The notes beneath the pieces were generated by a model. The model was given only the letters and a program-made list of their open reading frames with translations. It was not told the DNA's origin and searched no databases. From Halorussus amylolyticus (GTDB lineage Archaea; Halobacteriota; Halobacteria; Halobacteriales; Haladaptataceae), in the NCBI RefSeq assembly GCF_004143485.2, contig NZ_ML974137.1, positions 18,045-82,044 on the forward strand: a stretch of 64,000 nt of DNA, read 5' to 3'. Made by a program: the position numbers and the translations under genes. Shown here piece after piece: positions 1,700 through 48,463 of this stretch. The first letter of the stretch is position 1, and each line of letters starts with the position of its first letter.

Positions 1700-1886
1700 A
1701 ATTGGGGGAGTAACCGTCTGCGGTGCGGGTCATAGGCACCGTGTTGCTCGCAGTTCGGTGCTGTTTGGCGGTCGCCGTATTGATGCGGTTTGTTCGAACT
1801 CTCACCGCAAGCCCGCCTGAATATCTGCTTTCACAGCCTGTTCAGATACAGGGGAGCGCCCCATTCGCCCAAATCCGGGCGGGACT

Positions 1887-1987
1887 GAAAGGGGCCGCAG
1901 TCTCGGCGAAGACGGACGACGTAAGCACCGCAGGACGGAGTCCGAGGAGCGCAGCGAGTCCATCGAGCCGAGACGGCGGGGGCTTTC
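1887..1987 (-). repeat. GAAAG-CCCCC element, copy D (divergent interior)
   Basis: Shares the conserved ends of the dispersed element: gggactgaaaggggccgc on the left and ggcgggggctttcgaa on the right. The interior is unrelated in sequence to copies A-C but still folds, with gtctcggc pairing to gccgagac. It lies between the convergent 3' ends of the monooxygenase and YccF genes, and this otherwise gene-free 350-bp stretch holds nothing else I can identify. Confidence 0.6.
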
Positions 1988-2051
1988 GAACTGGTCTCGC
2001 TGACAGTTCCGGCAGTTGCGCTCTCATCCGGAACTCCCGGTTTTCACCCCT

Positions 2052-12839: not shown

Positions 12840-13008
12840 GAAAGCCCCCACCCGGTCGCTCTGTGTCGAAGACAGCAACAGCATGAACACCTCGAAAGCC
12901 CCCGCCCGGTCGCGGTCGCTCAGCGACATATCTCGGCCTCTCCGCACTGCCCGGCCGAGATAGGGGTCGCTGAGACGACCACGTAAACGCGACCGGGCGG
13001 CCCCTTTC
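12840..13008 (+). repeat. GAAAG-CCCCC element, copy A with truncated tandem fragment
   Basis: The full copy is 12894-13008 and a second left end (gaaagcccccacccggtcgc) lies at 12840-12859. The full copy folds as an outer stem cgcccggtcgcg/cgcgaccgggcg, a middle stem around gctcagcgac/gtcgctgagac, a conserved internal loop (acatat versus atagggg) and an apical stem ctcggcc/ggccgag. It lies in the 468-bp gap between bolA and the phosphatase gene, whose only other content is the direct repeats at 13024-13087. Confidence 0.8.
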
Positions 13009-13023
13009 ATTCCCACCCGTTGC

Positions 13024-13087
13024 CTGTGTCACCGGCCGTTTTCGGTGGTCTGTGTCACCGGCCGTTTCCCGGCGGATTGTGTCACCG
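13024..13087 (+). repeat. three direct repeats at 26-27 bp spacing
   Basis: ctgtgtcaccggccgttt occurs at 13024 and 13050, and a shorter tgtgtcaccg at 13078. The period is 26-27 bp. They lie upstream of bolA on its own strand and just beyond the phosphatase stop codon. No function is evident. Confidence 0.7.
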
Positions 13088-13139
13088 AGCGCCCGAACCT
13101 CGCCAGTAGGTCGCCGAAATCGCGGACGTTTCGCGGTCG

Positions 13140-29938: not shown

Positions 29939-30026
29939 TCCCGCGCGAACGACCGTTATGAATTCGAAGCGGAACTCCACCTCGAACCTCCTGCGCTCGG
30001 TTCGACAGACGCCGGGGGGTGGGAAT

Positions 30027-30150
30027 GAAAGGGGCCGCCCGGTCGCGGGCCGCAGGCCCATGGTCGTCTCAGCGACCCCTATCGCCGCGCGGGCCGTGCG
30101 GAGAGCGCGGCGATATGTCGGTGAGCGACCGCGACCGGGCGGGGGCTTTC
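30027..30150 (-). repeat. GAAAG-CCCCC element, copy B
   Basis: A 124-bp copy between the divergent paaA and HTH_10 genes. Read on the minus strand it has the same outer stem cgcccggtcgcg/cgcgaccgggcg as copies A and C, the same internal loop (acatat/atagggg) and an apical stem with different paired bases (atcgccgcg/cgcggcgat). A small extra hairpin (gggccgcaggccc) is inserted on one side. Short ORFs beginning MKGAARSR or MSVSDRDRAGAF arise from it and should not be annotated as proteins. Confidence 0.8.
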
Positions 30151-39658: not shown

Positions 39659-39779
39659 GAAAGCCCCCGCCCGGTCGCGGTCGTCTGACCGACATATCCG
39701 AGGCTCTCAGCACCGCCCGCCGCGGATAGGGGTCGGTCAGACGACCTCACCCTTCGGGCGCGACCGGGCGGCCCCTTTC
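39659..39779 (+). repeat. GAAAG-CCCCC element, copy C (best-paired copy)
   Basis: A 121-bp copy. The middle stem ggtcgtctgaccgac pairs perfectly with gtcggtcagacgacc, where copy A has different but still pairing bases. Outer stem cgcccggtcgcg/cgcgaccgggcg and internal loop acatat/atagggg are as in copies A and B; the apical stem is atccg/cggat. It fills the 345-bp gap between the small 49-aa gene and the aminotransferase; I see no gene there. Confidence 0.85.
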
Positions 39780-39850
39780 AGTCCCACCACCCACTTGGGT
39801 CGCCGAGCGAAGCCTTTCAAAACACGACCGTTACGAGAGGCCGCGGGAGG

Positions 39851-48282: not shown

Positions 48283-48463
48283 GGGGTCGTGGCCAAGCCA
48301 GGGATGGCGACTGACTCCAGAGGCCACGCGCCCGGGACGAGACTCCAGCTGATATACCGAGCGGCCGACTGATCATCGGTTCGCTGTGACGACCCTCTGG
48401 AGTTCCGAGGCGCACGAGACCGGAGATATCAGTCGATCGGGGGTTCAAATCCCTCCGACCCCA
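48283..48463 (+). tRNA. tRNA-Trp (CCA) with intron
   Basis: Acceptor ggggtcg/cgacccc, D arm with ccaagcc, anticodon stem actga/tcagt around loop ct-CCA-ga, T loop ttcaaat. The exon 1/exon 2 boundary appears to be near 48320/48428, so an intron of about 107 nt interrupts the anticodon loop, as known for haloarchaeal tRNA-Trp, whose intron carries a C/D-box guide RNA. Box-like ctga and gtgacga sequences are visible in the intron. The tRNA 3' end borders the mobile element. Confidence 0.95.
48321..48427 (+). ncRNA. tRNA-Trp intron, likely C/D-box guide RNA
   Basis: Intron of tRNA-Trp. In related haloarchaea the excised intron guides 2'-O-methylation of tRNA-Trp itself. Here agctgatat and gactgatc are candidate D boxes and ctgtgacgac a candidate C' box. 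Exact boundaries are from the bulge-helix-bulge pattern by eye. Confidence 0.6.

Follow-up and report, generated by a model that had tools for sequence, protein, structure and literature searches.

The window, that is, the whole stretch of 64,000 nucleotides analysed here, carries four short elements in the spaces between genes, at 1887-1987, 12894, 30027 and 39659, where the sequence-only reading had placed four copies of a single dispersed element. All four are present at these coordinates, and their placement varies as had been described, with 39659 lying between convergent genes, 12894 in tandem and 30027 between divergent genes by our own gene calls. The copies at 12894, 30027 and 39659 are indeed one element type, which we name A, whereas 1887-1987 has only the ends in common with them and differs in its core (GACGACGTAAGCACCGCAG...GAGCGCAGCGAG), and is here assigned to a second type, B. 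A supposed fragment at 12840-12859 does hold 5'-end sequence, not as a stray piece but as the opening of a tandem 5' unit 54 nt long. Each of the four listed elements was itself part of the covariance model (R1 for A, R2 for B) that gives its bit score in the following list:

1877..1995, + strand: type B element, written GGGACTGAAAGGGG to GGGGCTTTC (C10:19921-20039; alignment A4); at 123.5 bits the top own-genome match of R2
12840..12893, + strand: 54-nt tandem 5' unit preceding the 12894 element
12894..13009, + strand: type A element (C10:30930-31062; R1, 151.6 bits)
13024..13092, + strand: 3' array of ~27-nt repeats (TGTGTCACCGGCCGTTTCCCGGTGGTT), terminating in GTGTCACCGAGCG / GTCACCGAGCG
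30026..30150, - strand: type A element between divergently transcribed PaaA/PaaC-like and HTH_10/BAT genes by Pfam (C10:48061-48202; R1, 123.0 bits)
39659..39780, + strand: type A element between convergent genes (C10:57695-57833; R1, 134.9 bits)

The 3' motif GCGGCCCCTTTCANTCCC occurs four times, against a chance expectation of 0.24, and GAAAGCCCCCGCCC with at most one mismatch occurs 101 times in the genome, against three occurrences of the reversed control. As a DNA hairpin, the 39659 element folds with a z of -7.5. Arrays of the ~27-nt repeat (TGTGTCACCGGCCGTTTCCCGGTGGTT) lie 3' of many A copies in the genus and represent a second repeat family tied to A. Elsewhere in the window, an Rfam tRNA match of 181 nt at 48283-48463 (+), for which ARAGORN at default settings gave no report, suggests an intron-bearing tRNA gene.

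Anatomy of the elements

Plain A copies measure 108-130 nt and leave no space for a gene. The 5' portion starts with AACASCYM (frequent, not universal), then GAAAGCCCC(C), the outer arm and GGTCG; the middle comprises a middle arm of 9 bp, then AUAU, then either an apical stem that carries loop CUCUCCGCACCGCCCG or a simple hairpin, and finally AUAGNGG; the return side runs through the middle arm, a bulged A, CGACY, a linker (sometimes with a small hairpin) and the outer arm to the 3' end, GGCCCCTTTCA(G/T)TCCCACCC. The ends GAAAGCCCC and GAAAGGGG form an imperfect inverted repeat, with GAAAG/CTTTC and long arms as its inverted parts. These ends, like the AUAU and AUAG positions, hardly vary, and the mismatched core loop and a C-rich mismatch near the ends are conserved across many genera, while the arms look genus-specific (GCCCGGTCGC, GCTCGCTCGC, ACGCCGCTGGC); the last of these is found in Haloarcula-type genomes, with the same covarying pattern.

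Variation on this plan is modular. Some A copies hold additional GC-rich hairpins within the linker, within the apical loop or between the arms, and hairpin modules of the GAGCGAAGCGAAC and CCGGAAGACG types were seen in the apical loop or linker at loci L006, L013, L032, L058 and L255. Upstream, one to three more copies of a 51-57-nt unit sometimes precede the element, and such tandem units, with periods of 51-57, recur at many loci of the host genome. A CRISPR-like array was considered for the 54-nt units and rejected: the "spacers" of several arrays are near copies of one another, so that the units look like tandem duplicates.

The two types also occur together. In several genomes (Halopiger-type, G077; G195; g5; and others) an inverted B lies 22-500 nt beyond A, and the resulting composites, which contain additional stems inside, can reach about 750 nt. 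The host genome has one, at C3:156305-156746, whose middle domain (CCTCCCCAACC...CATCCCTCGCGCG) recurs in other genera. A middle domain written CCTCCCCAGCC...CATCCCTCGCGCG, with further hairpins, was also observed downstream of A at L261, L263, L265, L267, L220 and L229, and is common to distant haloarchaeal genera. The conserved A and B ends could pair as a four-way junction, which we offer only as a possibility because the end segments vary too little to test it. By extension, A and B might be halves of one ancient haloarchaeal structured unit (A-M-B, ~300-750 nt) whose four ends form such a junction, and which would work as a large folded molecule, either RNA or single-stranded DNA, with a haloarchaeal protein dedicated to recognising it; we regard this as improbable, but if true, the unit would represent a new class of mobile elements guided by structure.

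Copy number and distribution

In the host genome (G000; 3.78 Mb, 20 contigs, 99.9% complete) R1 identifies about 84 A loci that score at least 55 bits, a few of them on duplicated contigs, and R2 identifies about six B loci that score above the A cross-match level. Equal-scoring element loci stand at matching positions on C7/C16 and on C5/C10, which points to duplicated contigs or long assembly repeats.

Searching the Halobacteria with covariance models, as had been suggested for this family, recovered homologous copies in many haloarchaeal genera. R1 gave a match at E 0.01 in 160 of 242 genomes of the class. We counted only strong A matches because many weak ones coincide with B loci on the opposite strand, and for this reason discarded as too high a figure of 57 of 74 genera for A; with a best match of E < 1e-12, A is present in about 18 genera from five families. 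The corresponding search with R2 found B in 124 of 145 genomes, several with at least 25 matches, and, at a best match of E < 1e-12, in about 38 of 58 genera. In a phylum-wide sample, all of the matches listed fell within the window's own order, with none outside the haloarchaea.

Plasmid occurrences were found in Haloarcula, Halorussus and Haladaptatus, and among 19 plasmid records no annotated feature lay beneath a match. On Haloarcula plasmids one A copy sits in a conserved noncoding block, usually once per replicon (L214 6001-7765; L215; L124; L187; L096), some 490 nt upstream of a gene that on pNG500 carries the annotation SOSS complex subunit B, and of the like gene on other replicons; an autonomous element that includes this gene was rejected, as no opposite end was found beyond it. 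A virus-borne element was likewise rejected, since phage records gave no match and IMG/VR only four matching contigs for the two patterns searched. Rfam 15 returned no family match above the gathering score, and we found no description of the family in the open-access literature, though an earlier one may exist elsewhere. This large family of hairpin-forming, intergenic elements of ~120 bases is apparently undescribed.

Presence, absence and exchange at orthologous sites

The place of the 30027 element, between the PaaA/PaaC-like and HTH_10/BAT genes (site 1), was compared across 18 genomes of the genus. Most of them have A oriented alike, with arms and inserts that differ greatly. B stands in place of A in L281, the core is inverted in L287, the ends are converted in L283, the element has decayed in L280, L290 and L292, and the site is empty in L286 (122 nt) and L289 (76 nt). 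Site 2 (C2:362.6 kb in the host genome) holds A in the host and G175, and in six genomes is empty, with just 50-103 nt separating the aligned gene ends; a third site is filled in the same two genomes and empty in G024 and G161. The empty sites that the sequence-only reading had proposed to seek among relatives thus exist at all three places. This lineage-specific presence and absence, seen at few loci and between species whose ~80% identity cannot place exact ends, supports putative mobility, and absence at a site could be loss instead of no insertion. That most of the genus has kept site 1 suggests that the element does more than spread itself.

Host copies mostly lose their similarity to one another 0-9 nt to the left of GAAAG, while those with a tandem unit in common lose it about 55 nt to the left, and the best copy pairs are mostly 76-93% identical. 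As for target duplication, flank repeats of at least 3 nt were no more frequent than in shuffled pairings at five of the six offsets, and the remaining offset gave p 0.04, uncorrected for multiple tests. The transposase domain Y1_Tnp (PF01797; IS200/REP-type) is absent from the host genome, though it was detected in 5 of the 14 genomes used as controls; its absence speaks against movement of the REP/RAYT or IS605 type in this host. No transposase or recombinase is linked to the element ends, Y1_Tnp being the transposase family searched. The strict label of MITE, one of two offered before, therefore does not hold, as neither target-site duplication nor, in the Y1_Tnp search, a partner transposase was found.

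Compensatory change and the level of pairing

Changes on both sides of the stems had been said to preserve pairing, and the wider alignment agrees: across 49 own-genome A copies, 97.2% of cells are paired, and 18 pairs show double changes, in 202 cells. Shuffling gave 71 ± 8 such cells, with 0 of 500 shuffles reaching 202, and sliding the partners gave at most 23, a control over which the A structure has an advantage in having been derived from the tested alignment itself. Given these double changes and the nearly invariant AUAU/AUAG and ends, the arms covary around specific mismatched loops that are retained. When repeats are dispersed, even strong covariation does not have to reflect an RNA gene, and wobble-pair asymmetry together with the comparison of empty sites provides a direct test of that reading.

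RNA helices tolerate G-U pairs but not A-C pairs. For A, the host copies contain 13 G-U and 16 A-C and the wider set 78 and 37, raw totals of 91 versus 53; one helix-end column supplies 47 of the G-U (6 in the host, 41 in the wider set), and subtracting it leaves 44 versus 51, a contrast that is suggestive, not decisive, in that the column was dropped after the counts had been seen. The tRNAs of the host genome give 45 G-U versus 0 A-C, a control that may be flattered by ARAGORN omitting mismatched pairs, and B gives 14 versus 3, mostly from three columns. The wobble counts are thus suggestive of pairing at the DNA level for A alone.

A structured RNA family, whether a small RNA or one portion of a larger A-M-B RNA, multiplied across the genome and selected for its fold and AUAU/AUAGNGG loop, would account for the strong covariation with fixed loops, for a stable RNA fold (z -7.3), for the further stems of the long composites and for the G-U excess of B. 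We nevertheless consider it unlikely, if the foremost of the alternatives. A shows no G-U excess outside a single helix-end column, its core can be inverted and A and B exchanged inside the same fixed ends, and Rfam has no match, for which reasons an RNA gene is unsupported. AT-rich promoter-like boxes, moreover, often separate the element from the start codon, placing many copies upstream of promoter-like sequences and not in transcripts; a riboswitch or leader RNA was rejected on the same observation. The earlier proposal of a new noncoding RNA or MITE family consequently stands as far as a dispersed, structure-conserving and clade-wide family is concerned, with mobility backed by lineage-specific presence and absence, and its RNA part is weakened for A, with B retaining its G-U excess.

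Gene context

None of the 66 host copies analysed overlaps a called gene. By our codon-score gene calls, the 5' end of the element points towards a gene start in 49 of 61 cases (p 2e-6), and the 3' side in 28 of 60, showing no bias. Such an orientation, with site 1 filled in most of the 18 genomes, would be expected of a promoter-side regulatory or insulating DNA element, whose hairpin and 5' tandem units would influence the neighbouring gene in cis, for instance by forming a barrier or by binding a protein. The orientation bias is, however, not clear in other genera, the sites vary between species while the genes stay, and the neighbouring genes tested have unrelated functions, which makes a cis-acting role of this kind a rather doubtful account of the family.

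A proposed palindromic DNA repeat family

We propose, with a probability of roughly 0.55, that the elements belong to a family of small palindromic DNA repeats, specific to haloarchaea, that spreads and recombines as DNA; they are most simply read as mobile hairpin-based DNA elements and not as a proven RNA gene. Against this proposal, the raw A count and the B count may leave room for selection on RNA. The hairpin, when extruded or single-stranded, would be recognised at its ends and mismatched core by a host or mobile-element protein, and copies would thereby be moved or converted. Recombination through shared ends and arms could then swap cores, invert them and capture extra hairpins, and recombination between copies may homogenise the elements within a genus. 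Selection-free covariation, with hairpin-templated correction perfecting imperfect palindromes into inert remnants, would fit the near-perfect arms and the lack of G-U preference in A, as template-switch correction of DNA palindromes could alone yield double changes, but is very improbable given that it would erase the mismatched core loop and C-rich mismatch that many genera conserve.

Relationship to known repeat systems

The palindromic DNA repeats proposed here resemble several known systems. Like MITEs, they are short, noncoding and dispersed with terminal inverted sequence, but their inverted ends are imperfect, target duplication is lacking and no partner transposon was identified. They have in common with REP/BIME sequences and their RAYT (Y1) partners the intergenic hairpins with mismatches, conserved feet and inverted pairs, and differ in that the host has no Y1_Tnp gene, the hairpins are far longer and the A and B cores differ. 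Palindrome-associated transposable elements (PATEs) are also haloarchaeal, palindromic and transposase-free; they have, however, near-terminal palindromes related to IS605 elements, whereas here the whole unit is palindromic and Y1_Tnp is absent.

The closest likeness is to the small mobile repeats of Haloquadratum walsbyi (SMR-A/B) and its "SwitchRepeats", ~80-110 bp sequences with prominent inverted repeats and many copies, of which the SMRs lack target duplication and an internal transposase and move in an unexplained manner, and the SwitchRepeats place two different repeats, or one repeat in either orientation, at one position (PMC3119063). The A/B family matches the SMRs in size class, terminal inverted repeats, absence of a transposase gene and of target duplication, and exchange of repeats at one position. 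SMR copies are commonly >95% identical, and SMR-A inserts into IS605-type elements and PATEs (PMC3119063), whereas A and B copies have diverged yet remain paired and occupy intergenic sites in a genome without Y1_Tnp; compared by description, the family is therefore close to the SMRs yet not a member. Its compensatory evolution is very clear, its copies number up to about 84 in a genome, and it is apparently shared by many haloarchaeal genera. The movement of transposase-free small repeats in archaea, a question on which the family has a bearing, was called "enigmatic" in the 2011 Haloquadratum study.
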